A stretch of 64,000 nucleotides of DNA from Symmetrospora coprosmae (Eukaryota; Basidiomycota; Cystobasidiomycetes; Symmetrosporaceae), in the NCBI GenBank assembly GCA_008802785.1, contig VUYT01000025.1, positions 186,001 through 250,000 of the forward strand. Direction: 5' to 3'. Positions 17,131 through 47,880 of the stretch are shown one piece after another. The position numbers and the translations under genes were made by a program. How positions within the stretch are numbered: position 1 is the first letter of the stretch; each line of letters starts with the position of its first letter. The notes beneath the pieces were generated by a model. It ran no database searches. It was given only the letters and a program-made list of their open reading frames with translations, and was not told where the DNA came from.

Positions 17131-19497
17131 ATGGAGGATGCAGCGCACATCCTCTCCGAGTTCCTGTACTCCATCGAGAATGTCCCAGGCGAGACGGCGT
17201 TCCTGCTCGAGGAGATAGGGCATATCGACACCAAAGTCCAAGGTGGGTCCTGGCGTCCTGATGACGACAAAGGCGGTCCGATTCTACCTGAAAGCTGACT
17301 CTGTGCTTCTCCTCATGTTCTCCCTGACCTCTCTCGGCTCGCTGCACGCGCCTGCTCCCTCCCGGACCGACACGCAGAAACGCGCCAGGCCATCCAGAAG
17401 CGCGATGTGGGGAGCATCCAGAAGCACATCAAGGCGCACGGCCTGCTCAGCGACAACCCAAAGGAAGGGCAGCTCGTCGGCAAGATCCGGAGCGACTTTG
17501 CCCGGATATCAAAGCTGTCGGACGACAAGGTCGCCCTCGCCGAGCGCGGAGTGCGCCTCCTCGACAAGCATGTTCAGAAGCTCGAGGCAGAGTTCGAGCG
17601 CCTCAAGGATATGGGATACAACGTAGGCGACCTCCTCGGTCCCAGCAGCAACAGCAACAGTGCCGCTGGTGCTAGCGGTGCCGCTCCGAACGCTGCCGCC
17701 AACCAGCCATTCCCCGTTCTTGCGGGCGCGTCAGAGGGTGGCAGCGTGACGAAGAAGCGCAAGCTTGCCCCCGTCAACGCCGGTCTGCAGCTGCATGGGA
17801 CGCCTGGCATGGGAGGCTTCGGCGGGGCAGGGACGCCTACCTCGGCTCAGCAGATGCAGCAGGGCAATCCTTTCGCGGCATCACCTTCGCACGCACACAA
17901 CCAGATGGGTACGCCCACGCAGGGGAGCCAGCTCACTCCTCAGCAGCAACAGCAGATGTACCAGGCCGCACTGGCCCAGTCCTCTGGCGCCGGCTTACCG
18001 TACGGCCCAAGCGCAGGGCAGCAGTACCTGAACAGCAGCCCCAACGGCATCCAGCAGCAATTCACTCTGCAGCAGCAACAGCAGATGCAGCAGTTCCAGA
18101 ACGCGTACTCGAATATTGGGCAGCTGGCTGGAGGCGGGGGAGCAGGAGGGAGCAATGCGTCTCGCCCACACCGGCCCAGCCGACTATCAACCTCCTTCTC
18201 TGCCTCGGGAGCAGGGCCACATACTCTCATTCTACCATCCACGTCTGCCGCTCACTTGCCCCCGGGCGCGCAGACACCCACTGGAGCCGACGGGTCTGCA
18301 TCTACCGGCTTGGTTGCGTCAGGATCTGGCACGAGCCTGTCTGGCCTCGGAAACTCCACGGGCGGTGGAGCAGGCACCAAGCGTGGCCGGCCGGCCGGAG
18401 GTCCAGCTTCTGCCACGTCTGCCACGGGCCCCGGTGGGTCTGCGGCAGGCGGTCCAAAGAAGGCCAACAAGAAGAAGCGGATCCAGATTTCGGACGAGGA
18501 GAGCATCGGGTCGGCTGTGGACGGGGTCACGAGGAGCATGACTGACGGAGGCGACTTTGATGCCGAGGGCGAGGACGACGATGGCGATGGCGACGAGAGC
18601 GTCATGACCGTGGCGTCATCGCTTCCCGGGCAGAAGAGGGGGCCGGGCGGGCAGAAGGGCGCGTCGTCGCGGGCCGGGACACCGCTGGGGCACAGTGTGG
18701 GCTCGCAAGCAGGCACAGGCGGTACTGGCGGAGCGCAAAAGATCCGGCCGAGCGGTGCCGGCGGGCAGAAGCAGACAAAGGCGCAGCTCCTGCTGCAGCA
18801 GCAGCAGCTCCAACTCCAGCAACACTACATGCAGCAGCAGCAGCAGCAACAATTGCAAGGCGGATACGCGTCGCCGCAGTATCAGCAACTCTTGCAGGCT
18901 GGCATGAGCGGGCGCCTTGGGCAGGCGGGCGGGGACGAGGACGCGGACGGCGAGGAGGAGGTCGATGCAGAGGGCGAGGAGGACTGGACGCACGAGGGCG
19001 AAGAGCTGAACGCGGACGACCCGTCGCTCTACTGCTTCTGCCAGCGGGTGTCGTACGGCAATGTGCGTTGCTGTGCGGCTTGTTCGAGGCTTGAAAGTGC
19101 CGTCTCGGCTGACACGTTTTTGCATGATGCTTCCCGGCAGATGATCGCGTGCGATAACGACGACTGCAAGTACGAATGGTTCCATTGGGCGTGCGTGCGC
19201 ATCACGAAGCAGCCGGATGAGAACCAGCAGTGGTTCTGTCCGGACTGCAGGCCGCTCATGCAGGGCCCGGCCAGCAGTGGGGGCAGCAACAGCAACAGCA
19301 ACAGCAACAGCACTAGCACCAAGGCTCCAGCTTCGGCCGGTGCGGGTGGCACCAAGGCGCTGATGAGCAGTACAAGCGCAAGCGGAGGAGCGGGAGCGGG
19401 AGCGGGCCCATATGCCGAGCTGCAGGCGCAACAGAGGGAAATGATGCTCGCTGCTGCTGCTGCCGGTGGCGGCGGTCGGGCGAGCAGGCGGGGTTAG
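17131..19497 (+). CDS. ING-family PHD-finger chromatin reader
   Basis: Inhibitor-of-growth protein, a histone H3K4me3 reader of histone acetyltransferase or deacetylase complexes (the Yng1/Yng2/Pho23 class). Three exons, 17131-17242, 17378-19062 and 19141-19497, join to 717 aa. The ING N-terminal helix pair is clear (AAHILSEFLYSIENVPGE, then ETRQAIQKRDVGSIQKHIK, FARISKLSDDKVALAERGV). A long Gln/Gly/Ser-rich linker with several CAG-type Gln runs and a basic patch (KKANKKKR) follows. The C-terminal PHD finger is YCFCQRVSYGN / MIACDNDDCKYEWFHWACV and WFCPDCR; the aromatic pair expected to bind H3K4me3 (Tyr and the Trp of EWFH) is present. It is far longer than yeast Yng2 because of the linker. 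The intron inside the PHD finger is 78 nt and open in frame. Confidence 0.93.
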
Positions 19498-28430: not shown

Positions 28431-30000
28431 ATGCCCTGGGAGAGCATCAAGTCAGTCCTCGTCGAGCTGGCTCTTTCGGGCGAGCGAGAAGCTGGCAAGT
28501 TCGCATGGCGGATCCTCACGGGCTGACCCGGTGCACTTCTGTGCTCTTCTTTCCTCTCTTCCTCTCTCCGTCTCCGTCTCCGTCTCCGTCTCCCGATCCT
28601 CTCCCCTCTCTCCATCCCGCGCGCCCTGCATCTCCGCCGTCTGCTGCCTCCCGTCCCGTATTGTACCCATTCGCCACCTGTCGATCCCCGCTCATCATCC
28701 ACCCTCGTCCAGACTCAACACCGGCCGCGAGGTGCCAGGAATCGGATTCGGGTCCGCCGGTGTATGCCTTGATTTCTTCCTTCAGAACGCGCAGTTGACT
28801 CGTAGTGACCTGCCAGGACCTGGAAGATCCCTCCCCCCAACACAGCCAGCAACGTCGATACGGCGTTTGATGTCGGGTTCTCACATGTCGATACCGCGCA
28901 GGCCTATGGTGAGTGCAGCTGCCTAGCGCACATTCCGTTACGCTCAAGGCGCTGAAGGAGTCACCATGTACATCACAGGCAACGAGAACGAGGTCGGTGT
29001 CGCACTCAAGGAGAGCGGGCTGAGCAGGTCCGACATCTGGGTCACCGTGGGTGTCTCTCCCTACTACCCTTGTACCGCCCTCTACGCACAATTGACAGAC
29101 ACTCGCATGCACAGACAAAATGGTCCGGCCGTCCCTGGGGCAACGGCGAGTCGATCGACCCGGCGACCTCGCTCGACGAGTCACTCTCCAAGCTCGGCCT
29201 CAAACACGTCGACCTGTACCTCGTGCACACGCCGCGCCTCTTCGGCAGCCGCGACAACATTCGCCACGGATGGAAGGAGATTGTCGCGCTCCAGAAGAGC
29301 GGAAAGACAAAGAGCATCGGCGTCAGCAACTTTACCCTCGACGACATGAAGGAGCTCATCGAGGGCGGCGAGAAGAGGCCAGAGATCCTGCCGGCTGCCA
29401 ACCAGGTGTGTGCAATCTTGTCGTGCTTGAACTGGTTGTCGGTCCGTGCTGACCGCAGCACGCCTCGACCCGCAGATCGAGCTCCACCCCTACGTCTGGG
29501 ACGCATACAGGGCGAACGTCGAGTACTGCCAGCGCCACGTGAGTGTGCCCGAATGATCAGCGACACTTCTCTTTATTGCTTAGCGAGATGCAGAGCGCTG
29601 ACACTGGATCACTATTCAGGGCATCGCCATCGAGGCCTACTCCCCACTCAAGCCGCTGACGACCTACCCCGGCGGGCCCGTCGACAAGCCCATCGCGGAA
29701 ATCGCGCTGCGCCTGAACGTCAAGCCCGAGCAGGTCCTGCTCGCATGGATCAAGTCCAAGGGCGCGATCGCACTCACGACGTCACGAAGCAAGGAGCGGC
29801 TCGAGGCGTACGTCGCTGCGGGAGACGTGCAGCTCACGGAGGACGACACGCGCGCTATTGAGGCGGCTGGCAGGAAGGGCATAAAGACGGCATTCCGCAA
29901 GTGGGCCGGCAATATCGCTTACTTTATGGCTGCCTCTGCGGTGGGACAGATCCTCGCTTCGTGCGGGTCGAAGTACATCAATGAGGGCAAGCTCTGGTGA
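28431..30000 (+). CDS. Aldo-keto reductase
   Basis: NADPH-dependent oxidoreductase of the AKR superfamily. Seven exons (28431-28450, 28713-28759, 28846-28908, 28979-29046, 29115-29405, 29476-29538, 29620-30000) join in phase to 310 aa. The 20-nt first exon codes only MPWESIK and is fixed by phase and by the same arrangement in the second AKR gene at 52.2 kb. Catalytic tetrad: Asp and Tyr in HVDTAQAYGNENEVG, Lys in VTTKWSG, His in DLYLVHTP. Further motifs: IGVSNFTLDDMKEL, IELHPYVW, AYSPLKPL and VLLAWIKSKGAIALTTS. The last 30 residues contain a hydrophobic stretch (IAYFMAASAVGQILASC), which could be a tail anchor or pack on the barrel. The substrate is unknown. Confidence 0.93.
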
Positions 30001-30578
30001 TTGCTGGTCCTCCCACAGCGCAGACAGTCTCGTACGCAGGCTCATCTCGAGCATTGCAGCTTTGTGCAGTGTGTAATCGATCAACTTTGAGCGATGAGTA
30101 CTATCTGTACCCGATCCTCATGTCCTACATGTGACATGCAATTCTTTCAGGCTTGCATGCGTTCGTCAGCGGCTCCAGTGGGCGCAACCCAAGCTCAACT
30201 TCACCCTTCGTGTGAGCTACCCGTGATAACCTTCCTCCGCCCTTGCACGGGCCGGGTCGACCGGCATATGTCATAACTCCTCATGTACAGACCACTGCCA
30301 GCGGCCCTACTTCCGCACTTTAGGGACCAGGATCGACGCATTGGATTGACGAGCTGGATCACAAGTACAGAAAAGGACTCGAACTCGCTCACATTACCGG
30401 CCATTTGCGGTGTTTAATAGCTGTTGTGACTTCGATGACTCGGCAGGAGGTGGGATCTGACAACAAAACTGCGTGGTATGCAAGGCGGGTGAGTGATGCG
30501 GTACAGATCGGATGCTACGGAAGAAGAACGGAGTCGCTAGCGAAGCGCGGTTATGCTGGCTCGCGAGATGGGTACAGG
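30001..30578. other. Intergenic at left edge of the zinc-finger cluster
   Basis: About 580 bp between AKR and the 3' end of family copy A. No feature seen. Confidence 0.45.
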
Positions 30579-31736
30579 TCAAGTCTTGCGGCTCGGCGAG
30601 CCGGAGTTTTTGACATATAGGTCCGGCAGCTGAGGACACTTGGCGCCTTTGTGGATCTTTCTAGCACGCATGCATCGTTCCGCATAAGCCTTCTGGCCGC
30701 CAGATGTCGGGGGTTTCGGTACGTCGGCGATCACGTCCTCCCCGCAGCTTCAATGTCAGGAGTTGGGGCGCCGCATTTAGCGAGGATATTACATAAATGT
30801 GTGCAGAAGGCAGAGAACTCACTGTTTGCAGCTGCACGCACCACGACATGCCTCACTATAGCATTAGCTCGGGAAGTACTGTCCACTGGAGGCGGGTGTC
30901 GCACTTACGTCTTGCCGTCCTTATGGAATCCCTGATGTATCACTTGTAAGTGACCGTAGACATGGCTCTTGAGGCCGTCCAGATCTCCAGTTATTTTATC
31001 ACTGGATGAGAGTCTGCACATCAGCAACTGCGTCATCATCATGTGTCGCGTATATGTTAGGCCTACCACTCCTCGTGCCTGCATCTGGGTGAGCACAGTC
31101 AAGTTCAGCCATTGAAGCTATGCCAAGCATATATGTGCGCATTTTTGCACACCTGTACTTTGTGAGAGACACTCGCTTCCGCTTTGCTGTCGTATCAGCT
31201 GGGGGCTCAACGGCCACCGTTATCCAGTAACACGAGGCGTCCGTGTTCGTAATGGTTTCTCCAGGTCGATCGGGCAGGTCTTCCTTCTTAACGGGCCTGA
31301 ACGCCACTCTCATTTCAGGGTCTGGAAGCCGAGCTGGGCGGCTGCCGCTTCGCCCGGACGCGACTGGCGGGAATATCGGGCCACGCGGCTTGGGTGTCGC
31401 GCTCGATTGAGGACGGGCAGGCTGAGTAACCATACTAGGCTGAGTGACCATACTAGGCTGAGTGGGTGCCGAACCTTTGGCAGTGCTGTTGCTGCCAGAC
31501 GGCTGCGACGGCCGTGACGGAGGGTTGGGCACGCGACTGGCAGTCGAGCCGAAGGCTCCATCATACACCCTGAGCGGGTCCTTGTAATCACGCCGAACTC
31601 GCGTTGGCAGATTCACTGAGGGGAGTGGTGACAACGGTACCTTGGGCTTCAGGCGATAAAAATCGCGATTTTCATGGCGGGTGCTCGACGATGATGTGAC
31701 AGTTTGGTGCACTGTGGGCTTGTTCACTCGGGTCAT
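30579..31736 (-). CDS. Zinc-finger family, copy A
   Basis: Member of a five-copy family not known to me. Exons 31736-31153, 31084-31067 (18 nt), 31001-30909, 30831-30823 (9 nt) and 30747-30579 join in phase to 290 aa. It starts MTRVNKPT, then a Ser/Pro/Arg-rich disordered part with a near-perfect repeat (PSMVTQPSMVTQP). A conserved block follows (RPGETITNTDASCYWITVAV), then a C2H2 finger: YRCRHEEC-D, twelve residues, HVYGH, then VIHQGF. A second knuckle reads CKHCGEDV, and the tail is ERCMRARKIHKGAKCPQLP. The 18-nt exon encodes exactly the C-x4-C turn; the 9-nt exon encodes C-K-H. A nucleic-acid-binding role is inferred from the finger only. The upstream block at 31797-32090 is shared with the other copies. 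Confidence 0.72.
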
Positions 31737-31796
31737 CTCGTCAGGTGCGTTGGCGGTAAGCAGCGCGCGAGGGTGGGGTAAGAAAGGAAGTGGGAG

Positions 31797-32090
31797 TATC
31801 GACTGGTGCAGAAGTAGAGGCAAGAGCAGGTCCAGTCCAAAGCGGGCGATTTCATAGCAGGGCGGGCATAGCATTCGAGAGAGGGGTTGTTGTCCAACTT
31901 GGGCACCTACAGTCGTGGCAGTGTAGATCCTGGGCCCGACTGAGCTCCTTACGAGGAGTCAGCTGCTGCGCGGAGCGATCTAGACCTGTGCCATTGACGA
32001 CAAGGGAAGAGAGGGTGGGAAACACGGAGGTTCGCTTTGGAGGAAGCGCATCAAGGGTGTGGCGAACAGGCCGGAGGGAGGATGGACGGG
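31797..32090 (-). repeat. Family upstream block, copy A
   Basis: Upstream block shared by all five zinc-finger genes. It includes a ccaccctc stretch, a ctgccacgactgta segment, and a TATA-like gctatgaaatcgcccgc segment about 115 bp before the ATG, followed by ctttggactggacctgctct. This copy has diverged at the TATA-like site (tatgaaat). Confidence 0.7.
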
Positions 32091-32528
32091 GTCGAAGAAT
32101 GGGGATGCAGCATGACGCTTGAATCAGGGCCAGCTATTTCGCGATGTCGCTTCGTTGGTTGTGGGTATATCGCACAATGTGTGTGGGTGTCTATAGCAGC
32201 GTTGCGCGCCACAGGACGACCGTCGACCGCAGCGACTGCACGACATATCGTCTGCAATAGCGGTAGTGGCGCAATTTGCGGCCAGTAAGCCGGGCACCTT
32301 ATTACGTCGTCGCCGTCTACGTCACGGACTCGCGCTCATTCTATGGCGTGTCTGCGAATCTCAATGGCACTCATCGATCTGAAGGTTCGGCAAGAGGAGG
32401 ACTCGCCGACAACACTGCGTGATATCCAAGGCGCGTAGGTGATGCGATACAGAGAGGGTGCTACGGGATGGGGAAGAACTCGTTAGCGAGGCAGGGATGA
32501 TGGCTCGCGAGATGGGCATGAATGGAGT
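32091..32528. other. Spacer between family copies A and B
   Basis: About 440 bp between the upstream block of copy A and the 3' end of copy B. No gene or terminal repeat seen. Confidence 0.4.
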
Positions 32529-34040
32529 TTAGCGGCTCGCAGGGTTGGAGCCACTCTTATATAGGCTCGGCAGCCTGGGACAGTTGGCGATCTTGTGTAA
32601 GTATCGCGCCTGCCTGCAGCGGCCATTATAACGCTCTCGGTCTGCGGACCCTTGTGCTGGCTCTACGCGGACGCACGAGTCCATCCCACAGCTACAATGG
32701 CAGGAGATGAGATGCCGCATTCAGCCAGAGCCCTCATGCCAGTTCGCGGGGGGCGAATAGCTTACTGCTTGCAGCTGCATTTACCATGCGCCATGCCGAT
32801 CAGATATGTTACTGCGCCATCAGCTTGGTGATTGGCCCCTATAGGCGGGTACCGCACTTACGTATTGCCGCCGTAAGCGAAACCCTCATGCACTACCCCT
32901 AAATGCTCGTAGGCATGGCTCTCGATCTCTCTTAGAGAGCCATAGAGACGGTCACTGCTTGAGCTTCAGAATCTACACATTAGCGTCTGCGTATGACGAC
33001 GCATCTCGTACAGGTGACAGACCTACCATCCCACATGCGTGCACCTGGATGAGCACAGTCAGTTTATAAGTGTGCAGCGCGCATGTCTTCATATCTCTTG
33101 CTCACCTGTACATAGTCTCGGTTTTGTTACGCCGCTTAGCCGAGCTGCTTGACCCCTTGTCAACCCTGACGTTTACCCAGTAGGCCGAGAGGCTCGTATT
33201 CACGATGGTCTCTCCGGGTCGCTCGAGATTCTCCTTTGCGCCGAAGAGAAAGACCTTCGTAAAGACTAGATCCTGACCTTGAGCCTGGCGGCTGCCGCTC
33301 TTGGCAGTGTTTGGCGATGGGGATCTTGACGAGACGCTGTGCGCCGACCCAGAGTCACGCATGAGCCCCTGGGCAAGCAATCCGGCTAGCCCATACGAGA
33401 AGCGTGCTGCGTTGGTGGCCACGATCATGGGACCGGGACTGCCCACTCCCGCTTGACGCGCTTCGACACCTTTGCCTTTGTCGGCAGGATCCGGCGTGGG
33501 CGACCTCGACGAGTCCCTCGACGACTCATAGTATGGCGCAAAGACCTGCCGTCTGATCCGGTTGCTCATCGCTGTGGCTGGCATAGTCCTGCGATGAGAA
33601 AGTGTGTTTGTGGTAAGAAACTCAATGCTATTGTCGACCATACTCAGCAAGATCATTGCTCGCTCACGGTTTCTCGGCAAGTCTCTTTTCGATTGCCAAC
33701 CGCCTTGTGGCATCCTGTGTCTTCCGCTGATCCAAAATCTGCCTAGCTGATGGCCGATTAACGAGGTTCGGTACGCCGTTGCTGACTTGTCCACTGCGAG
33801 AATATCAGTGTCAGTACAATCACCAAGAGCTGGGTCCGCTCATCGTGGATGTGCGCTTACCTGTTGCCAGCACTGCTAACAGCCTCAACAGCCGTGTTAT
33901 GCGTTATCTGACGTGCGCGCTGTCCGCCTGTACGTCTGATGGCGGACAACTACATCAGCCATAAGACGTATCATTTGTCTTACTCCTTCGCCTCGTCGAG
34001 CTTACTCGGTAGGTTTGGCAGGACCGCCGACCCGCGTCAT
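32529..34040 (-). CDS. Zinc-finger family, copy B
   Basis: Exons 34040-34006, 33872-33861 (12 nt), 33793-33668, 33588-33106, 33044-33027 (18 nt), 32954-32862, 32774-32766 (9 nt) and 32691-32529 join in phase to 312 aa. It starts MTRVGGPAKPT. A charged helical segment (RKTQDATRRLAIEKRLAEK) precedes a low-complexity part containing KGVEARQAGVGSPGP, shared with copy D. The conserved block RPGETIVNTSLSAYWVNVRV leads to the finger CTHVGCD with twelve residues to HAYEH (C-x4-C-x12-H-x3-H), then VVHEGF, CKHCGMD and the tail RCRQARYLHKIANCPRLP. All eight exons are in phase and no stop interrupts, so the copy looks intact. Confidence 0.75.
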
Positions 34041-34108
34041 GTTGTCGAGCGTGTCGTCACTTTTTGCAGACGAGGAGGAGACTGCTGCAAAGGGAGGCTG
34101 ACGAAGGG

Positions 34109-34399
34109 AAGATATCGACCGATGCAAATTAAGAGACAAGAGCAGGTCCAGTCCAAAGCGGGCGATTTTGTGGCAGAGCCAGCACAGCACTCTCGAGCGG
34201 TCTCTTGTCCGTCTTGATTATCTAAAGTCGTGGCAGTGCAGCTCCAGATTCCGATTTAGCTCGAATTCCCAGAGGGCCAGCTGCTGCGCCGAGCGATCTA
34301 AGTCTGTGCCTGCAGTGACAAAGGAAGAGAGGGTGGGAAGAGTGGACGGTTCTTAGATGGAGTACCTGAAGTGTGTGGCGAATAGGCTGGAGGGAGGAT
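34109..34399 (-). repeat. Family upstream block, copy B
   Basis: Same block as in the other four copies, here with cacaaaatcgcccgctttgg about 130 bp before the ATG and the ccaccctctcttcc segment further upstream. Confidence 0.7.
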
Positions 34400-34745
34400 G
34401 GACGGCGCGGAGGCGAAGGACGAGGCTGCCGCATTGCGCTTCCATCATGGTTGGATGTTTGCTGTTTCGCTTGTCCGCTGCAATATATCGTACGAATCTG
34501 CGCGCGGGGTCTTGCGAGCCAAGGGCCGTCCGCGGCAGCGACCGCATGAAGATGTCGCCTAACGAGCACGAAAGCGGGAACGCTGCAGTTGTTGCGGTTG
34601 CGGTTGCGGTACAGTGAGCTCGTGTGCTCGCAAAGCGACCAATCGCCCTCCTGTCGGTTCCCTGTGCGAGCCAGCCGGAGCGCGTCATCGTCGTCGCCGT
34701 CCATGTACGTTGTCCTGTTTTTGCTCTTGACCCAAGACGACGGCG
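34400..34745. other. Divergent region between copy B and PUS7
   Basis: About 350 bp upstream of PUS7 and beyond the copy B promoter block. It contains a short GCGGTT microsatellite near 34595. No gene seen. Confidence 0.4.
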
Positions 34746-37627
34746 ATGGACGCATCAGCACCAGCAGAGGCCTCTGCGCCAGAAGTAGGAGCAGAGCCAT
34801 CGCAGCAGCCTGCATCGCGACAGCGTCCAGGGGAGGAGCCGGCGCAGTCGTCCGTAGCCAAGGAGGAGCCAGAGGCTGATTCTGCGCGACCTGCAAAGAG
34901 AGCCCGCGTGGACGAGGATGCCACGATGGGAGAAGCGACGACGGCAGATGCAGCAGCGACGGGGACCGTAGATGCTGCGTCGACTGCATCCACATCTGCT
35001 CCCGCGACCGAGTCCGCCGCGCTGAACCCGCAGTCGCTTGCTTACCGGATGGCCCAGTTCAGCGCCAACAGCGAAACGTCGTCCGAAGCCCTCGTCGGCA
35101 TCACCGCGTATGTCAACCCAGACCTACCGCCTTTCACGAGCGCCATCATCAAGCACCGCTTCACCGACTTCTTGGTCTGGGAGATCAGCAAGGACGGCGA
35201 GGTCGTCAGGCTCAAGGACATCAGCCGGCCCATTGCTGCACCGCTGCCGTCCGAGGAGAAGGAACAAAAGGAGCAGCAGGGAGTTGCAAGCACGTCGGAG
35301 AGGGCAGAGGATGCATCAGATGCGACAAAGCTACAGTCGGAGCCAAAGCCAGAGCCGGCGGGCCCACCCACGCTCGAGAGCCTCCTCTCGGCGGAAAAGC
35401 TCAAAGAGCTCGACGAGTTCGTCAAGAACGGCAAGCAGAAAGGGGCAGAGATGCAGTCTGATGTATGTGCACGCTCCCACTGCTTGTGTGTCTCGAGGCG
35501 CGCAGCGAGGAGCAATGCAGCCGTCTCGTCTAATGCGAGCGATGTTGACTCGCTGTCCGCTCGTGTGACGTCTCTTTCAACTATCCAACCATACTATCCT
35601 GTACATGCAACCCACAGCCCATCAAAGATAAGGAGCAGCGCAAAGCCTTCCACAATGCTGTCCGGGAAGCACACAGCGGCAAGCTTTCGACAGAAGCGAA
35701 AGAGGATGGGAGCATCCGGATAACGTGGTCGAACGGGGGAGGTAGAGGTGCGTTGCCGTCATCTGATATCTACAGAGAGCCACATGCATTGGAAGGCAGC
35801 ATCCGCTGACGCCATCCACGCATCTGAATGTCCCAGACCGACGCACTACGCGGCCACCCAAGGCGGACCAGCGCAGCCTTCCGCCGTACATCCGCTTCAC
35901 GCTGCACAAGACGAACCGCGAGACGCAGGACTGCATTTCCCAGCTCGCCTCGCGGATAGGCGTCGCGCCAAAAGACCTGGCTACAGCAGGAACGAAGGAC
36001 AAGCGGGGCGTGACGACACAGCATGTCACGGTCAGGCGTGGACGGCGGACGGTCGAAGAGCTCTGGGATCAGGTGAACGGGCTGCACCACGGGCGGTCCG
36101 AGAGCGCATTCACTCGCGGAGGCGGGAGAGGCGGGCGTAACGGGCGCGGTGGGGGACGGGGCGGCGGCGGGTTCATGGGACGAGAAGGCATGATGCCGCG
36201 CGAGCGAGGAGATCGCGGTCTGCGCATCGGCGACCTGCAGTACGTTGACAAGCCGCTCGACCTCGGCATGCTCGACGGGAACCGGTTCGGTATTGTCCTG
36301 CGCGATGTACAGGCGCCCTCGATGGACGTCATCACAAGCGCGCTTACCACTCTGAGAAGCACGGGATTCATCAATTTCTACGGCATGCAGCGTTTCGGCA
36401 ACTCGAGCGTGCCCACTCATCTCGTCGGGCTGGCACTGCTCCGTACAGAGTGGAAGGAGGCTGCGAGGTTGATCCTCCATCCGCGCGATGGAGATAGCCC
36501 GGACATCATCGAAGCGAGGAAGCTGTGGACAGAGAAGCGGGACGCGCGAAGGGCGCTCGATCAGCTGCCTCGCTGGCTTGTCGGTGAACGGTGTCGTGAG
36601 TATTGCTGACCCCGTCATTCGCGGCACTCTGCTCATCATCGGCTGATTTGCTTTACTCTGCACGTCGTCTTATGCAGTCCTCGAGCACTACGTGCGACAC
36701 GGCGACTCCAACCAGATGGCAGCGCTGTCGACGATCCCGAAGAACCTCCGGATGATGTACGTGCACGCGTACCAGTCGTACCTCTGGAACTCCGTGACGT
36801 CGGAGCGTGTGCGGCTGTACGGCTGCAATGCGCCAGTTGCCGGTGACTTGGTATTCGATATGGAGGCTCCCGCGCCTGCCGAAGCGTCTGCGCTTTCCGG
36901 CAAGATTACTCAGGACAGCGTGAAAGCGCACGGAACGAGCAAGACACCCAAAGTTCGGGTGCTCACGCAAGAAGAGGCCGAGAGCGGCAAGTACACTATC
37001 CACGACGTCGTCTTGCCACTCCCCGGCTACAGCATCACGTATCCTGGCGGCCAGCTGGGAGCCATGTACAGGGAGATGATGGCTGCAGACGGTCTCGACG
37101 CAGACAACATGTTCCGGACGCAGAAGTGAGTTCCATCTCATCGTCCTTCGCAGGGCACGACTCGCTGATACCACAACCTTGTCAACAGGGAGTTCTCGCT
37201 TGGCGGAGCATACCGCAAGATCGTCCTGCGTCCCTCGAACCTCACATGGGAGTTGCTGCCATACACGGATCCCAATGCAGATCTCACACAGCCAGACGAG
37301 GACGCTCTCTTGGGGATGCCAGCACCCGTACCCGACAGCGACGGCCCGCTTCTTGCGCTACGGCTCGATTTTGGCCTCGACACTGCTGCGTATGCGACAA
37401 TGGCACTGCGCGAGGTGCTCAAGAGCGAGACTGGGAACGTCGAGCAGCGCAAGATGACAGAGGCAATGCTGGACAAGGTCGCTGCCGCGAGAGGCGGATC
37501 GGACACTCGGGACGATAACAAGAAGGATGAAAACGGGGAGCATGCGCAGACTGCGGACGAAGCGTCTGTGCAGTCGAACGAGCCGGCATCAGACATCCCG
37601 GCGGACGTGGCAGAGCCATCGCAATAA
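34746..37627 (+). CDS. PUS7: tRNA pseudouridine synthase, TruD family (Pus7)
   Basis: Makes pseudouridine in tRNA, U2 snRNA and other RNAs. Five exons, 34746-35462, 35618-35747, 35837-36595, 36678-37125 and 37189-37627, join in phase to 830 aa. The N-terminal 100 residues are disordered. TruD features: TDFLVWEISKDGEVVRLKDI, PPYIRFTLHKTNRETQDCIS, the catalytic motif AGTKDKRGVTTQ with its Asp, LDGNRFGIVLRDV, GFINFYGMQRFGNSSVPTHL, NLRMMYVHAYQSYLWN, LPLPGYSITYP, and REFSLGGAYRKIVLRP-like at the last exon. A Gly/Arg-rich insert (TRGGGRGGRNGRGGGRGG) interrupts the fold after the catalytic motif. The gene is a single conserved housekeeping gene set in the middle of the zinc-finger cluster. Confidence 0.95.
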
Positions 37628-37821
37628 AAGTCGTGGTCACCTGGTGGCGTTTAGACCCTGCGCGCAGCCGCACACTGGCTCACAAGTGTTCGTGACTGTG
37701 ACAGCTTGCACGGAGCTGACTATCGCTAGGATCACTGGGCTCCGCTGGCCTGTGGCCCATCCCTTCCCCTCTGCGCCAGCGGCGGGCGGAGTGCTGCACT
37801 CGATTCACTTGGCTCCAGGCC

Positions 37822-38097
37822 TTCCGCCACACCCTTGTTCTGCACTCCCTGAACCGGTCTCCGCTTTTCCCACCCTCTACTCCTTTGTCGTCGCCTCCGC
37901 AGGTCCAGATCACTCCTACACGCACAGCAGCTGACCTTCTGGGAATTCGAGCTAAATCGGACACTGGAGCTGCACTGCCACGACTGTAAGATGGCCAAGT
38001 CGGACAAGAGACCTCTCGAGAGTGCTGTGCTGGCCTCGCCATAAATCGCCCAATTTGGACTGGACCTGCTCTTGTCTCTAAGTCTGCATCAGCCGAT
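37822..38097 (+). repeat. Family upstream block, copy C
   Basis: Shared upstream block with ccgcttttcccaccctc, gaattcgagctaaatcggac, ctgccacgactgtaag and a TATA-like ccataaatcgcc about 135 bp before the ATG. The 37628-37821 stretch before it is the 3' flank of PUS7 and shows nothing else. Confidence 0.72.
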
Positions 38098-38176
38098 ACT
38101 GTACTTACCCTGCCCCAGCGCCCCTTGAAGCCTTCCCCTACTCCTCGCCCGCCAAGACTCAGCATCACTTGACAAC

Positions 38177-39562
38177 ATGACACGAGTCGGTGGAAGTGCT
38201 GCTAGACCTACCGGGTAAGCACTTTTAGAAGAAGGTTGCGGTATACGTACGACGCCTGGCTAAGGCATCGCGCTCCACCAGCTCTACCGCCGGGCAGCGC
38301 CGAAAGGGCCACCGTCTCGACAACAATATCATCGCCCCGTTCCGGCCGCCTGCTCTTCTCCCCACTCTCCAGGCTCCTCCCAAAGGAGGCAGGGTGAAGG
38401 CCTATACGCTGGACGACGCCCAATCTCGCGCCCACCCGAACGTATTGCCTCCGCCAGCGTATGCTGCGCCCACTTACTCGTATGGCTCACGCAACCTGCC
38501 CAACGAGCACCGACCTCTTCACTATGCGTGGGTCACGAAAGTACCCGCAATAATATCAACTGCCTTCTGATTCGCCCAATACTTGCAGCCCGAAGGTCCC
38601 AGCTGGATTCTTCCACAAGCTCTTCCCGCCCGCCATGGACAGCACAAGCGCTAACAGTAGCCCAAGCCGCTCAGCATCACCGCTCCGACACGACGACGAT
38701 AAGCAGCGGGCGAACGCCACAGTCTATAGGTCATCGAGCAGCGTCTCAATGAGATCGTCCTCGCCTCGAGACACCGCCCAGCGCCAAATTCGGGGAAGGA
38801 GCCCAGAGCCCCGCGGAGAGAGCGCCAGCAGTGGTAGGGTCCCGGCTTCGATCGGAGATCCGGAGATCCGGAGATTAAGATCGCGTTCAAAGCCATCAAG
38901 AACGAAGACATACGTGAGCGAAAGGGAGAAAAGATCGTCAATCGGAACGCCTCGACATACTGGATGACTGTAGCCGTTCCTACGCCACCCGGTTCGAGAA
39001 GTAAGCGCAACACTATCGGTAAATACAGGTGAGCAAGAGTGCCGACACATACGCTAGGCGTACCTATGATGGCTAACCATGACTGTGTCCACTTAGATGC
39101 AAGCACGAGCGTTGGTAGGCTTACGATTTACGAGATTCGTGATTATGACGCAGTCGCTAATGGGCATCTTCTCTCCCCAGTGACTATTTCCATGAATCTC
39201 CGCATAATATCAAGAATCACGTCTACGAACACATGGGCGTGGAGCATCAGGGTTTCACCCCTGAGGATATGTACGTGGAATACCTGCTTGTAATGAGCGT
39301 CAATTCCAGAGCTAACGTAATAACAACGCATGACATGGCGCATGCGGGCATGTAGCTGCCTACAGTGAGTTCATTGCCTTCTGCAGGTTGGCATATCAGG
39401 TTTGGCTGACTTTGGCGATCCCACTCCTCGCATAGCTGCGGGCAAGATGTGACCGCTAAGGTGGTCAAAACAACATTGAAGGATTACAAGCAGCGGTGCT
39501 ACGTACAGCGATACCGTCACAAGAGCTCACTGTGTCCCAAGCTGCCGAAACTCAAGGAATAG
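38177..39562 (+). pseudogene. Zinc-finger family, copy C (frame-shifted by an 8-bp duplication)
   Basis: Exons 38177-38214, 38282-38527, 38589-39028, 39097-39114 (18 nt), 39181-39270, 39356-39364 (9 nt) and 39436-39562. It starts MTRVGGSAARPTG. The third exon carries a perfect tandem 8-bp duplication, ggagatcc at 38854-38861 and again at 38862-38869. The frame before it ends shortly after; the frame after it encodes the family block (KIAFKAIKNEDI, KIVNRNASTYWMTVAV), the finger CKHERCD...HVYEHMGVEHQGF, CLHCGQDV and the tail YRHKSSLCPKLPKLKE. Discounting one copy of the 8-mer the total is 320 codons including the stop, so the lesion is recent or an assembly slip. All splice sites remain intact. 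No short intron of normal size bypasses the lesion. Confidence 0.65.
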
Positions 39563-40056
39563 GCTCTCACGCTTCAAGCCACAAGACGTGATCCGTACCC
39601 ATCTCGCCATAAGGAATTCCTTCGTATCGCTCATGATCCCACCTCATCCCATAGCACCTGCATTATACCATATTAACCAACCCACCATGCATATCGCGCA
39701 GGCTTGTTGACGGCTCCTACCTCTTGTCGAGCACCCAAATGGATGAGCGCCATTGAGAATCGCATATACGCCATATGCATGGACGTGAGCGAGTCCGTGA
39801 CACAGACGGAGATAGCGACGACGTGTGCTGGACACCCTCTCGCCAACGGAGCACTCCATTTACCAGTGCTGACCCCTGCAGTGACGAAGTAGCGGCCACT
39901 GGCGCAGGCTGCCGGCAGTTTCATCACCTGAATCGAGTCATGGCAGATGGGTGTTGCCGACGCAATGGCATACATCGAGTGGAGGCGACTTCATTTGGCG
40001 GGGGTTGGAGCCGATTACAGACACATGCAATCCTTAAGTCTCACTTCAGCCACTGC
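39563..40056. other. Spacer between copies C and D
   Basis: About 490 bp after copy C and before the upstream block of copy D. No gene, inverted repeat or recognisable element. Confidence 0.4.
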
Positions 40057-40328
40057 GCCACACCCTTGATCCGCCCTCCCTAGGCCTAAAGCGACCTCCG
40101 CTTTTCCCACCCTGTTCCCTTTCTCGCAACCTCTTCAGGTCTAGATCGCTTTGTACAGCAGCTGACCCTCTGGGAATTCGAGCCAAAGCAGACACTGGAT
40201 CTGCACTGCCACGACTGTTGGTGGCCAAGTCGGACAAGAGACCTCTCGACAGTGCTGTGCTGGCCTCGCTATAAAATGGCCCGCTTCGGACTGGACCTGC
40301 TCTTGCCTCTCAATCTGCATCGGTCGAT
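40057..40328 (+). repeat. Family upstream block, copy D
   Basis: Shared block with ccgcttttcccaccctg, ctgccacgactgt, a clean TATA-like gctataaaatggcccgc about 120 bp before the ATG, and ttcggactggacctgctctt. Closest in sequence to the copy C block. Confidence 0.72.
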
Positions 40329-40388
40329 AACTGCCCTCCTTCAGCCTCCTCCTCGTCGCCTGCCAAAGCTGACCACCCGCTCGACAAT

Positions 40389-42000
40389 ATGACACGAGTC
40401 GGCGGGAGCGCTGCCAAACCTACCGAGTAAGCTCGACAAGGCGAAGGAGTGCGGTAGCTCTTATGTCTCATGGCTGACGTAGTTGTCCGCCATCAGACGT
40501 ACGGTCGGACAGCACGCACGAAGTATCTATTGAGGTTGTTAGCAGTGCCGGCAACGGGTGAGCGCACATCCACAATGAGCGGACGCACCTGTTGGTGCTT
40601 GCACTGACCTACATTTCCTCGCAGTGGACAAACCCGCAATAGCGTACCGAACCTTCTTAATCGCCCAACAGCTAGGCAGACTTCGAAACAGCGGGAGGAA
40701 CAGGATGCCGCAAGGCAGTTGGCTCTCCAAAAGAGACTGGCCAAGCAGCGGTAAGCGAATGATGGTCTTGCTGAGTACTGTCGAAGGGTAGCATTGACCA
40801 CATGTAGACTTCATCCACGCAGGACCATGCCGGCCCCAAAGCTGAACGACCTTGTCAGACGGCAGATCTTTGCGCCATCCTATGACCCACCGAGTGACTC
40901 GTCGAGGTCGCCCACGCCGAACCCTGCTAACAAAGACAAAGGTGTCGAAGCACGTCAAGCGGGAGTGGGCAGTCCCGGTCCCAATACCATGGCCAGCATG
41001 GCAGCACGATTCTCGTATGGGCTAGCCGGATTGCACGCCCAAAGTCCCTTGCGTAGCTCTACGCCGCCGAACGGCGTCTCGTCAAGGTCCTCCTCACTCG
41101 AGAAGCCTGCTAACAAAGCCGGAAATCCCCAATCGCGTCGTCAGATACCAATGCCTCGTTCCCATCCTGAGCGCGTTCAGGCCGACGTACCGAGCTCATC
41201 CTACGGGGGGTCCGCGCCAGGCCAGTCGCTAAACTCGCCACCACCCGGGAGGAAGACGGCTTATGTAGGCAGGGCTCCGCGAGGCCCTTCGCGCAAATGG
41301 AAAAAAGTATCTTCAGATGTACCGGCGTTGAAGATCGAGAACGAATTTCGTCGAGCCGCTGACGGACGCTCGCTTTGCGAAACGAGCAAGCGCGAAGGCT
41401 CTAGGAAGGATAACAAATACTGGGAGAGGTTCGAGACGACATCCTCTACCGGCGTACCTACCTGGCGTCACATGTAGGCGGAGCTCCTCTCTGTCCGTCG
41501 ATACTTGAGAGCTGAAGACCTTGCGACTTCGCGATACTAGGTGCTTGTTTGCAGACTGGTAGGTCGGGTTTCGGGGGATGAAGTGCGTGTTGGACAGGTC
41601 TCAACTGACCCAGCCTCGCAGTGGAAACACCTATAAGCAAAAGGAGGATGCGGTTGTCCACGCCTGCAGCCATCTGGGGGTCAAGCATCGAGGGTTCCAG
41701 GGGGAATGGGGAAATGTGTAAGTGACTCATCACGTATGCATGCCGACGGCTGACCATTGGATCGATGAACTGATGCTGTCTCGGATTGCGTCTACAGCTG
41801 TCTCCAGTGAGTGGACTGGTCCGTGAATGCCCTGGCTTTGTGCTAATTTACGTGCCGTGCCGCCCGGTATCAGCTGCGGAGAGGACGTGAGCGGGATCGT
41901 CAAAGTTACTGACAAGACCCGCGTAGGTAAAGCGATGGCTCGTTCTCGCAGCATTCATAAAGGGAGCTGCAAAGCTGTCATGCAGCTTCTCGATGCGTGA
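40389..42000 (+). CDS. Zinc-finger family, copy D
   Basis: Exons 40389-40426, 40546-40557 (12 nt), 40625-40750, 40823-41473, 41541-41558 (18 nt), 41622-41717, 41798-41806 (9 nt) and 41874-42000 join in phase to 358 aa. It starts MTRVGGSAAKPT; the charged segment is KQREEQDAARQLALQKRLAK, and KGVEARQAGVGSPGP is shared with copy B. The finger reads CLFADC then twelve residues to HACSH, then LGVKHRGF, so the C-x4-C-x12-H-x3-H ligands are kept although the usual extra His after the first Cys is Phe. The second knuckle is CLHCGEDV. The tail ends SRSIHKGSCKAV and lacks the final CPxLP. The YW block before the finger is poorly conserved. Confidence 0.7.
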
Positions 42001-42577
42001 GGGGACCATGGCCACCACATTACGTTCTGGTGGATCTCAAGCAAACGTTCACCCTGGGCAGCAGCAAGCCCGTGAGGTCGTGTCTTCCTTCCCTTCAGTC
42101 TTCTGTGCGCCTTTGCCGTCGTCGCAAGGTTTCCCGCTGTCCATGTATTCCGAACCATGATCGTTGAACATTCTGAATACAACCTGGGCGTCTCACGCAT
42201 AGGCAAGCGAGTGCGGAGCACTGGCATGCTACGGGGAATCGTATTCTCAGCGCCTATTGCTAGTCTCTATGTGGGGGTATTCTTTTTCACTGATGCTACT
42301 CGTTCACCCCTGACTCTTTCAAATCTGCAGGACCGCGTCTGGTCCATCGCAGCAAGTGGTAGACCCGGTACCGCGGCGACCCCGGCATCTAGAGCGCTCC
42401 CGTCACGACTATGACCCTTCGTCGGACAGCGACACAAACGGTCGTCGCACGCCTGATGACCCATCTCTCGAGGTGCCAGATTCCATCCGACCCGTCAGCG
42501 GGTACTTCTGCCGGCGCAAATAACAAGACAAGGCACCTGTTCGTATTGCGCTGGGAGCACTGCACTGTACCCGGCTC
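42001..42577. other. Spacer between copies D and E
   Basis: About 580 bp with no supported gene or repeat. Confidence 0.4.
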
Positions 42578-42865
42578 ACACCACCCTTGCCGCCACATCC
42601 TGGATTTAGCCTCCCTGAACCCGACTCCGCTTTTCCCACCTTCCCCTTGTCGCCAACTTCACGGATCTAGATCGCTCCGTACACGCACAGCAGCTGACCT
42701 TCTGGGAATTCGAGCTAAATCGGACACTGGAGCTGCACTGCCACGACTGTAGATGGCCAAGTTGGACAATAGGGCCGGCCTCCTGGATGCTGTGCTGCCT
42801 CTGCTATAAGAGTGCCGTTTTGAGATGCAAATGCTCTTGCCTCTCCCTGCATCACCCGACATTCG
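42578..42865 (+). repeat. Family upstream block, copy E
   Basis: Shared block, very close to copy C over ctgaccttctgggaattcg and the ctgccacgactgtag segment, with a TATA-like gctataagagtgcc about 120 bp before the ATG. The part after the TATA-like site is the most diverged of the five. Confidence 0.7.
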
Positions 42866-42924
42866 TCTCCCTTCGACATCTCCTCTTAGCTCTGTGCTGC
42901 ATCATCTGTGCGTTATCTGACAGA

Positions 42925-44285
42925 ATGACGCGAGTGCACAAATCCACTGCGACTGCAGGCGGCAAGACCGACCGACGCTCCGACCTCAGCTGTGCTGAAC
43001 GTCAACGTCTGCAACATCGAAGGTTGCTACCACCACGTCCATTACCGAACCTCGGGCTGCCTGCTACCCCGAAAGGAAAGATTGTGGCTTATGCTGAAAC
43101 GTACGCCCGGGGCCCGACTGCGATGCCGAACCCTCCCGCTCGTCCGCCCGCCAACCGCAGCTCTCTCGTAGTTGCTTCACCTGCTCGGATCCCATCGCCT
43201 GTCCGATCTCCACTCAGCGGATCGCCTGCGTCTGGAGGCTCGACTGTCCGGCCATCTGCCGCTACAGACACGCGGATGCAGAGTCCTAACAAGGTTGGCG
43301 GAACAACCACCCCGCGAGACCTGGACCAGGTTAAGAGCACCGCGTCGCCCAAGACGCCACCGAACGCAAAGCCACCAAAGTCGCCCAATGGAGGTCCGTT
43401 GAGGGTCCAGTCAGGCGACACGCACGGTAAAGGCAAGGCTGCTGCGCAGCCTCGAGAGTCAATCTCCCCTGCACGGCCCCTGCCAGCGACACAGGCAGCC
43501 AACAGTGCCGCGGAACCCCGTCTGTGCGGATTGCAGGGTGCTACAGTATCATTCAAGGCCATCGCGGACCCAAAGATCGTGCTCAAGGAGGACGAGAAAG
43601 ATGCTGATCTCATCGAACACAAGCACTATATCTACGTTCCGTACAAACATTTATGGTAGTAAGTCGAAAATGCCGGCATGCACAAACTGGCGAGCATACC
43701 TGGCTGATTGAATCTCGCTGCCACTCGAATAGCTGCAAGCATATGAATTGGTGAGACGCTCTTCACAAAGATGAGGTGTATGAAGCTTGCTGAGCTGTCG
43801 GGCGGCGCCTTTCTCGCTCGCTGACAGCGCTACGGCGAGCAAGCCCTGGAGCACGTCCGACAATTCGCACATGGCTACACACTACCATCAGCACATTGGC
43901 GTGGAACATAAGGGTTACGAGTGGCAAGGCGGCTTAGGCCAATGCATGTGAGAGAGCCTTTTCTGGACGCGTAAGTGGAACGAAAGCTGATATATCACCG
44001 TCCCCGCCTCCTACATCTGCGTATGCCAACGGCAGATGCCGACAGTGAGCAGATCTAACAAGCCGTCCAAGGCAACACGATCACACACACGCGCTTCTCA
44101 CTGACATGCTTCGATTGATGCCACACCGCATCAGCTGCGGTGTTGATGCGCACGCACAGCAGCCTACAAAACGGCCTACAAAACGGTCTAGGAACCGCAC
44201 TGAGCATTCGGATGTAGTGCGGAGGTTGCGCAACTTGCGCCACAGGCACAAAAGCCGCTGCCCAAAGCTACCTCCGCTAGATTGA
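42925..44285 (+). CDS. Zinc-finger family, copy E (most divergent)
   Basis: Exons 42925-43658, 43733-43750 (18 nt), about 43828-43947, 44036-44044 (9 nt) and 44135-44285 join in phase to about 343 aa. It starts MTRVHKSTATAGG; like copy A it has no intron near the start. The long first exon is Pro/Ser/Lys-rich. The block before the finger is altered (VSFKAIADPKIVLKEDE, HKHYIYVPYKHLWY). The finger begins CKHMNC but the spacing to HYHQH is longer than twelve by this splice choice. Then come IGVEHKGY, CRHCGVD and the tail RHRHKSRCPKLPPLD, nearly identical to copy C's tail. A 12-bp tandem repeat gives KRPTKR in the last exon. The third-exon acceptor is uncertain. Confidence 0.62.
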
Positions 44286-45628: not shown

Positions 45629-47880
45629 ATGCCAGGCCTCAATGAGCGCACCCAGCGACCGAACCAGAACATCAACTTCATCAAGACTGGCGAGAAGGAT
45701 GGCCCGGACCAGGCCATCGCGCAAGACATCCTCGAGCGCGTGGCCGCGCAGAGTGCGTCGACCCTCGAAGCGCGACCGAGACTGCCTAGCTGAGGCGCAC
45801 TCTACGTTGTGGCAGTGTCACCCATCATGAAGGAGCACTACCTCCTCGTCAACTCGCTAGAGGACTTTCCTCCCAATCGCGAGTTCTGGGGAGTAAGTTG
45901 CCGGAATACTACCCTTTACGACCTCGACAAGTGTCGCTAATCCAGCCAACGTGTGCGGTACAGCGCAACTTCAATGCAGGCGAATGCATCCAGCTCGTCC
46001 TCAAGTCGCCCTTCAGCGGTCGATGGCTGCCGTACTCCTTCATCTGCCGAGTCATGCTGCACGAACTGGCACATGTGTGTATGCTCGCATAGAGCTCTCT
46101 TGGACAAATCCGCTCAGGCTGACATACGGCCCACGCGTCTGTCCGCAACTGTTCATCGATAGAACAAGCAGATGAACCACTCGAAAGCCTTCCACGCCGT
46201 GCGCATCGGCTTCACCGAAGAGCATGATGGTGCGAGCTCAGCAGCCAGCACCTACTCTCGCACGGCACTCCGCTGAACCAATCTTGCCCACGCACAGCCC
46301 TCACTGCCAAAGGCTACACCGGCGAAGGCTTCTGGAGCCGCGGCCAACCGCTCTCCGCCGACTACACGGCGAACCGCGAGCTGCTCGAGGACGAAAAGCC
46401 GACCAATCTGTGCGGCGGCGCGTACCGCAAGAAGCACCGGCGGGCGAACACGGCCGCCGAGGCGGGGGAGAAGCGCAAGGTGACGTACGCAGAGCGACAG
46501 CAGAGGAAGAAGGAGCGGCTGTTTGGAAAGGACGAGGGCGCTGCGCTTGGAGCGGACATGCGCACGCGCCGGGACTTGGAGAAGGACAGCGCAAAGAGCA
46601 AGGGAAAACAAGCGTCGGCCAAGGCGAGTGCGGTAAGGCCGCGCGTCGCACAGAGCCAGAGGGGGCGCGACTTGCGAGCCGAGGCGGCTGTCCGGAGAGC
46701 CGAGGAGCAGAAGAAGGCGGAAAGGCTGGCCAAAAAGGAGGAGGAGGACGGCGACGGCGAGCGCGACTTCTTCGGTCGCCCGCGCCACGAAGGTAGCTCG
46801 AGCTCGAGTTCGGGCTCGAAAGCCAAGCGCAAGAAGCGCGAGGACTCGGACGATGACGAGGCGAATAGCAACGCGGACGATCAGCTCACAACAACGGACG
46901 AAGAGGACGAGAAGAAGGCCGTTGATGTGGGGATGGGCGAAACGCTTGTCAAGGTCGAGGAAGGGCAGGAGGAGGACTGGGAGGCCGAGCTGGAGCGCAT
47001 GGACATTGGCTGCTCCACGTCGAGGAACGGGACGACCAGCAGCAGTACCGGTCTGGGCTCGCGCGACGCTTCCTCCGGACCGGCCAGCAACGGTCACCAG
47101 AGATCGAAGGCTACCGTCCGAGCGGTACAGCAGGACGATAGCGCGACAGAGGACTCGGATATCGAGTTCCTTGAGGAGGTCCGACCGAGTACAAAGGCAC
47201 CAGAAAGGTCGAGTGCGGTTGGGCCCCAGCAGAAGAAGACGAATGAATCGGCTGTCAAGAACGGCAAGGCGGGCTATCCGAGCAATGCGACAGGATCGCC
47301 TGTTCCGAGCTCAAGCAAGAATATCAAGCCTCGCTCTCGCTCCTCTTCCTTCACTCTCCCGCCGCCACTGAGATCGCAGGCATCCGCCAGCGCCGGCTCC
47401 CCTCGCCGCCACGCATCTCTGCCTAGGAGAGCAGCAGAAGTGGTGTCGGGGGAGTACGCGCACGTCGGCATACAACGCATGCTCGCGCGAGCCGAAGCGC
47501 AACCTCAATCTGGGCGAGCGGCACCTTCTGCGGACACTCCCATCATGGCGAGCATGCTGTCTGAAATAGAGGCCGAGTCGGCGCATGAGGAAACTGTCTG
47601 TCGCGCATGCACCGTGCCGAATGACGGACAGAAGGCACTCTGCTTTGTGTGCGGGAACGTCCTTCGACCCGAGCGGACGCCGAATTGGCGTTGCTCGGAG
47701 GGCGACTGCGCTCACAACATCAATTACAGCGTGAGTAAAGCCGAAGCTGGGTGTCTGTTGCCGCCGAGGCTGCGCCTGGCTGACCTCGGTCTGCCCCTGT
47801 CATGCTTCGTTCTCGGGGATACGCAGAACCCGATGGACGCCGGCGTGTGCGGCTGCTGCGGTGCTCGACGGGCAGGGTAG
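45629..47880 (+). CDS. WSS1: WLM-domain metalloprotease (Wss1 type)
   Basis: DNA-dependent metalloprotease that digests proteins crosslinked to DNA, the fungal counterpart of SPRTN. Exons 45629-45752, 45816-45892, 45964-46074, 46163-46229, 46298-47730 and 47827-47880 join in phase to 621 aa. The WLM domain opens GLNERTQRPNQNINFI, then SPIMKEHYLLVNSLEDFPPN, and the zinc site MLHELAH + NKQMN + H spans an intron. It ends LTAKGYTGEGFWSRGQPLS. A long Lys/Glu/Ser-rich region with DSDIEFLEEV (a possible SUMO-interacting stretch) follows. The C-terminus has Cys knuckles VCRACTVPNDGQKALCFVC and a RanBP2-like finger NWRCSEGDC...CGCC. The last intron is 96 nt and open in frame. The start ATG is the nearest upstream one; a short 5' exon is possible. 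Confidence 0.9.

Follow-up and report, generated by a model that had tools for sequence, protein, structure and literature searches.

The sequence examined here raises a simple question: what are the five related genes that flank PUS7 in the basidiomycete Symmetrospora coprosmae, and how did they come to stand there? The window, meaning the whole stretch analyzed, comprises 64,000 nucleotides (nt), bases 186001-250000 of the 297,783-base contig VUYT01000025.1 (C17 below), in a genome of 20.05 Mb and 77 contigs. We put at roughly 0.55 the probability that the five genes, here A to E, form a lineage-specific cluster of C2H2 nuclear regulators that arose by duplication and gene conversion; the nuclear role, nucleic-acid binding and metal at a second site are parts of this reading that we infer.

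Five genes directed away from PUS7

All five genes begin MTRV and are directed away from PUS7: the minus strand carries A and B, the plus strand C, D and E. An earlier note, made from the sequence alone, had proposed this outward arrangement, and the gene models, whose exons were read by keeping the conserved phase, bear it out:

Gene A, 30579..31736, minus strand: 5 exons (31736-31153, 31084-31067, 31001-30909, 30831-30823, 30747-30579), 290 amino acids, complete frame, all introns GT-AG, single stop
Gene B, 32529..34040, minus strand: 8 exons (34040-34006, 33935-33861, 33793-33668, 33588-33106, 33044-33027, 32954-32862, 32774-32766, 32691-32529), 333 amino acids, complete frame if intron 1 ends at CATCAG
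PUS7 (TruD family), 34746..37627, plus strand: 5 exons, 830 amino acids, between B and C
Gene C, 38177..39562, plus strand: start part (38177-38214, 38282-38527, 38589 onward) open; finger part (38874-39028, 39097-39114, 39181-39270, 39356-39364, 39436-39562) open
Gene D, 40389..42000, plus strand: 8 exons (40389-40426, 40483-40557, 40625-40750, 40823-41473, 41541-41558, 41622-41717, 41798-41806, 41874-42000), 379 amino acids, complete frame
Gene E, 42925..44285, plus strand: 5 exons (42925-43658, 43733-43750, 43828-43947, 44036-44044, 44135-44285), 343 amino acids, complete frame

Spliced frames are thus complete in A, B, D and E, and every intron is GT-AG. The exons of B (35/75/126/483/18/93/9/163 nt) and D (38/75/126/651/18/96/9/127 nt) run closely parallel; the CATCAG acceptor of B intron 1 was chosen, unlike that of D, because the D-type acceptor gives stops in B. 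In the finger half, all five copies have the same exon structure, in line with the kept splice sites described before. PUS7 is the sole PF01142 locus found in the genome, which agrees with its proposed single-copy status, and is probably a bystander.

Genome searches found these five copies only, at this one locus, at the sensitivity used. A pattern joining the 9-nt exon to the next acceptor hit six genome sites, five of them these genes, and its reversed control hit none. A sixth copy, suggested by a pattern match on contig C45 and a weak protein match on contig C16, was rejected, as none of five finger and knuckle motifs was present in six frames, though one-exon searches may miss distant copies.

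A classical finger and a second module

Aligned from finger to tail, the five copies share 17 invariant columns, ten of which are Cys or His (C27, C32, H45, H49, H54, C64, H66, C67, H98, C103). Part of the motif set that the earlier note gave to the whole family is indeed general: C-x-H-C-G-x-D and (G/Q)VxHxG(F/Y) are present in every copy. The remainder is more restricted, with C-x4-C-x12-H-x3-H in four of five (E has x17). PGETIxNT is confined to A and B, and YWxxVxV and HK-x3-CPxLP to A, B and C; in place of HK-x3-CPxLP, E has HK-x2-CPKLP, and D keeps HK-x2-C but lacks PxLP.

The same note had suggested a profile of the five joined finger-to-tail regions and knew of no named family with this motif order. 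No finger region passed a Pfam cut-off in any of the five copies, nor did NCBIfam give anything in the three copies scanned, so that far the claim stands. Against solved sequences, however, the five-finger profile matched TFIIIA (expect value, or E-value, 1.7e-7), YY1 (1.9e-5), GLI (4.2e-5), WT1 (7.6e-5) and KLF5 (4.3e-4). At E-values up to 10 it reached 47 distinct solved sequences, 41 of them zinc-finger proteins by name and six of them ribosomal uL13 entries (0.09 or worse) lying over the second module, which we take as chance; every match better than 0.05 falls on finger 1. By profile, then, finger 1 is a classical C2H2 finger and not a new domain, and what lacks a name is only the second module and the arrangement. 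The "basic tail" of the earlier description may make up half of another metal site.

In C-x4-C-x12-H-x3-H (four of five copies) and in its profile match, the family resembles the classical C2H2 proteins (PF00096; TFIIIA, YY1, GLI, WT1, KLF). It differs from them in having one finger per protein instead of an array, the x17 spacing in E, and a finger split by introns with its Cys pair on an 18-nt exon, as well as in single sequences that fall under the Pfam cut-off. The nearest other likeness is to PF17017 (zf-C2H2_aberr), to which the finger and knuckle of copy C align over positions 1-59 of 172 at 15.9 bits, from a query with two mistyped residues and below the 27-bit cut-off. With correct sequences one of five members was listed (best E-value 0.12), and a PF17017 search of the genome at E-values up to 1 gave nothing in the window and three sub-cut-off matches on other contigs. 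No Pfam match to WRKY, FLYWCH, BED or FAR1 zinc fingers appeared at E-values up to 10, but since HMMER filtering discards most matches weaker than about 0.1, a distant relationship to these may have escaped the search. Other weak listings were judged chance: DUF2002 (0.019), Prok-RING_4 (0.06), HVO_2753_ZBP (2.3), Myticin (1.8) and three NCBIfam rows (0.14-0.27).

Mosaic history of the copies

The earlier note saw widely differing N-terminal halves joined to a kept finger, and took this to suggest a binding module with fast-evolving partners. For B and D this fails, and the reverse holds. Their N-terminal halves are homologous (z 60; 61% amino acid identity over query residues 1-106), with DNA 81-86% alike in ungapped arms that span introns and 82% alike over 273 bases, while their fingers are 33% identical within a ten-pair range of 27-47%. 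B and D are 75-89% alike in the upstream block and in the first three exons and introns, and 63% alike over exon 4, the first part of which lies within an 81% arm; past exon 4 the segments are 41-50% alike and the 9-nt exon 56%. Elsewhere, the N-terminal halves of A-E and C-E each gave z 3.7 (0 of 300 shuffles), and the other seven pairs gave z of 2.5 or less. Searched against the genome, A also picked up C at 38% (query 108-196) and B at 29% (query 39-198), across a region containing the YW block.

The finger half of B groups with A and C, and introns in the finger half are 64-68% alike among A, B and C and 40-52% in pairs with D or E. By bootstrap, the identity of D to (B, C) minus that of A to (B, C) is +0.066 (95% interval 0.006 to 0.123) in the upstream block and -0.163 (-0.210 to -0.119) in the 3' half. 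In the upstream block, C and E share a common run of 31 polymorphic sites that was reached in none of 5000 permutations, and shared runs were also seen for B-E (p 0.0006), A-B (0.0038) and B-C (0.029), uncorrected for ten pairs. The copies thus form a mosaic pattern, for which duplication with gene conversion as the probable process is the best explanation, and their mixed halves would make the locus a small, self-contained example of how a regulator family exchanges cassettes.

By eye, the 3' flanks of A and B (30420-30600 and 32395-32530) are alike, and that of A matches that of C (30563-30593 with 39577-39607), suggesting that the duplicated unit takes in the 3' flank.

A shared upstream block

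Upstream of each gene lies a block that is similar in all ten pairs (74-85%) and was found at five genome sites, all in this cluster:

Upstream block of A, 31797..31982, minus strand: 77% to the D block
Upstream block of B, 34093..34300, minus strand: 84% to the D block
Upstream block of C, 37924..38098, plus strand: 89% to the D block
Upstream block of D, 40142..40349, plus strand: the search query, with a TATAAAA-like box inside
Upstream block of E, 42687..42853, plus strand: 79% to the D block

Indels of 1 base speak against coding, and a coding role was rejected on these grounds. The block is promoter-like and may act as a promoter; since it is common to the five genes, they are probably expressed together.

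A proposed cluster of C2H2 regulators and the points against it

Under the reading we favor, tandem and inverted duplication around PUS7 would have given the five copies, and gene conversion would later have recombined upstream/N-terminal and finger halves between them. Each protein would join a Ser/Pro-rich N-terminal half, probably disordered as judged by eye, to a C-terminal pair of metal sites, namely the classical C2H2 finger (C-x4-C-x12/17-H-x3-H) followed closely by the proposed C-x2-C...H-x3-4-C site. The C-terminal part would most likely bind DNA in a sequence-specific manner, less likely RNA, and the N-terminal half would contact partners, with the five genes probably driven together through the conserved upstream block. 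The nucleic-acid-binding module of the earlier note is plausible. In their clustered, duplicated zinc-finger paralogues, the KRAB and ZAD families of mammals and insects are comparable; those families carry finger arrays and a common N-terminal domain, whereas the proteins here have a single finger each and share no N-terminal domain across the five.

Several observations weigh against this reading. Lone C2H2 fingers often bind protein. An earlier profile of four sequences (A, B, E and part of C, without D) reached a best E-value of only 0.05 and, taken singly, none of the five copies passed the Pfam zf-C2H2 cut-off, two being listed at E-values up to 10 (best 0.43) with a best score of 12.5 bits against a cut-off of 25.2. 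The C-x-H-C-G-x-D...H-x3-4-C module after finger 1 matched no named family and had no credible match of any kind, and the C-x2-C...H-x3-4-C metal site proposed for it is a guess from invariance and spacing alone. As for conversion, the B-D minus B-A difference excludes zero in the 3' half only (upstream interval -0.012 to 0.115), and six of ten pairs have no upstream run at p<0.05. Constraint is also modest: the N-terminal ratio of nonsynonymous to synonymous divergence (Ka/Ks) for B-D is 1.08 over 133 codons, given without an interval; the A-B finger-half interval takes in 1; and in the finger half of A, B and C exons (57-61% identity) are no better conserved than introns (64-68%; Fisher p 0.33, 0.023 and 0.088).

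The break in copy C belongs with these points. Its start part and finger part are each open in different frames, such that no single frame runs from start to finger, and an 8-bp tandem repeat (38857-38872) lies where the two disagree. On paper, 17 candidate introns of 41-137 nt could bridge the break. The start frame of C reaches a DPE-like motif, and in alignment A carries the matching place without an intron, which favors a frameshift in C over a hidden intron. Copy C is therefore probably frameshifted, with the 8-bp repeat the likely cause and either a real indel or an assembly error behind it; that the repeat is part of an intron is less likely.

With five of ten pairs saturated, finger-half Ka/Ks was 0.65 for A-B (0.34-1.06), 0.43 for A-C (0.21-0.84), 0.44 for B-C (0.21-0.85), 0.56 for A-E (0.26-1.01) and 0.28 for C-E. 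Together with the exon/intron comparison, these values imply that constraint on the finger is weak to moderate and falls mainly on the ligands; they lend no support to positive selection on the finger.

Microexons and a possible splice switch

In all five copies, the Cys pair of finger 1 (C-x4-C) sits on an 18-nt exon, and the C-x-H of the second module on one of 9 nt. A pattern of splice sites plus ligands, drawn up after the copies had been seen, had a single occurrence in every real stretch; of 20,000 dinucleotide shuffles per stretch, 0-3 contained it:

18-nt exon of A, 31067..31084, minus strand: matched in 3/20,000 shuffles
18-nt exon of B, 33027..33044, minus strand: matched in 2/20,000 shuffles
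18-nt exon of C, 39097..39114, plus strand: matched in 0/20,000 shuffles
18-nt exon of D, 41541..41558, plus strand: matched in 0/20,000 shuffles
18-nt exon of E, 43733..43750, plus strand: matched in 3/20,000 shuffles
9-nt exon of A, 30823..30831, minus strand: matched in 3/20,000 shuffles
9-nt exon of B, 32766..32774, minus strand: matched in 0/20,000 shuffles
9-nt exon of C, 39356..39364, plus strand: matched in 1/20,000 shuffles
9-nt exon of D, 41798..41806, plus strand: matched in 0/20,000 shuffles
9-nt exon of E, 44036..44044, plus strand: matched in 0/20,000 shuffles

Metal-binding residues on exons of 18 and 9 bases would make the finger easy to switch by splicing. The reading of a C2H2 cluster may accordingly be extended, tentatively and in our view against the odds, to one in which alternative inclusion of the two microexons turns the two metal sites on and off in frame, giving binding and non-binding isoforms of each gene. 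In all five copies, skipping the 18-nt exon, the 9-nt exon or both keeps the frame, gives no early stop and removes metal ligands, and both microexons are retained in D and E despite introns only 40-52% identical to those of other copies, an identity also reached by shuffled controls on two introns (37-55%). Two short exons would both be multiples of three by a chance of about 1 in 9 if unselected, so frame symmetry alone gives the switch weak support. The length of the middle finger exon is likewise divisible by three, and leaving this exon out gives a stop in E only, so the symmetry of the microexons may merely reflect an all-phase-2 gene; the conserved microexons may also be constitutive, in which case this would be an ordinary lineage-specific C2H2 cluster with unusual exon structure. 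Rather unlikely, we judge, is the full combination, in which microexons of 6 and 3 residues separately carry the ligands of two metal sites, splicing is able to disarm either in every member, and gene conversion reassorts upstream/N-terminal with finger cassettes in one cluster. Five paralogues with metal ligands on 18- and 9-nt exons would nonetheless make zinc-finger control by splicing testable from transcripts.

The closest functional precedent that we met is Xlr2 of Trichoderma virens, in which a 20-nt microexon is reported to encode part of the DNA-binding domain and to be included without glucose (PMC11121469). The same paper describes functional microexons in fungi as little documented. 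Xlr2 is likewise a fungal regulator with a zinc domain partly encoded by a microexon, and it is a Zn2Cys6 protein from one gene whose 20-nt exon is not a multiple of three (PMC11121469). Here, there is a C2H2 finger with a proposed second site, in five genes with two in-frame microexons, and regulation is only hypothesized.

Decay, conflict and mobile elements as less likely readings

The frame break in C, the missing PxLP of D, the neutral-looking N-terminal half of B and D, and the finding that in A, B and C introns are at least as well conserved as exons would all fit a tandem array that is largely in decay, with one or two genes still working. Four complete frames of 5 to 8 exons and the retention of the microexons in the most diverged copies speak against it, and we consider decay improbable.

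Still less probable is a locus for non-self recognition, drive or other conflict, in which one of the mosaic halves would set specificity and the other act as effector. Paralogues that are clustered and mosaic in descent, the B-D N-terminal Ka/Ks of 1.08 and a family found at one locus only are what such a locus might present, yet no known incompatibility domain passed the Pfam cut-off, and the three homeodomain (PF05920) matches lie on contigs C11, C1 and C8 and not on C17. A homeodomain mating-type locus was rejected on the same placement, all of these matches being on other contigs.

Repeated units in both orientations might recall the remains of a mobile element or a protein domesticated from one, but this is very improbable, as inverted repeats of at least 14 nt framing the five units were not found, Pfam found no transposase or reverse-transcriptase domain, and no dispersed copies were found elsewhere in the genome; a transposable element was rejected on the missing framing repeats and dispersed copies.

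Relatives in databases and the literature

Of 8000 protein-database entries scored with the family profile, one was listed as a weak match (E-value 0.093, over 2% of the query), and the finger region of A gave none among 68 candidates at E-values up to 10. A control search with PUS7 indicates how to read this: among the best 120 of 1503 matches, the named ones were at most 49% identical and came from basidiomycete fungi as far as names show, and the best unnamed proteins were 65%, 60% and 58% identical. The database therefore covers the host lineage thinly, and little can be read into a lack of relatives. A literature search by title and start of abstract met no report of such a family; a survey of the C2H2 genes of 30 Basidiomycota (PMC12295980) could hold relatives. 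That the family is undescribed, as the earlier note supposed, therefore rests on limited searches in a poorly sampled group.

Neighboring genes

Some 67 kb separate the cluster from the nearer contig end. A subtelomeric array was rejected, a TTAGGG-type array (the one repeat tested) being absent from the outer 1500 bases of both contig ends. To the right of the cluster, 45790-46089 holds a WLM-domain (Wss1-like) exon (PF08325, E-value 2.8e-9), and to the left, 28956-29858 holds an aldo/keto reductase gene (PF00248, 2e-13). Farther out, 21133-22725 matches the TRP-channel family (PF06011, 1.1e-19), and conserved genes at 593-2128, 9588-11579, 17299-19494 and 60578-61345 encode a gamma-tubulin complex component, SNF5, ING and a formyl transferase.

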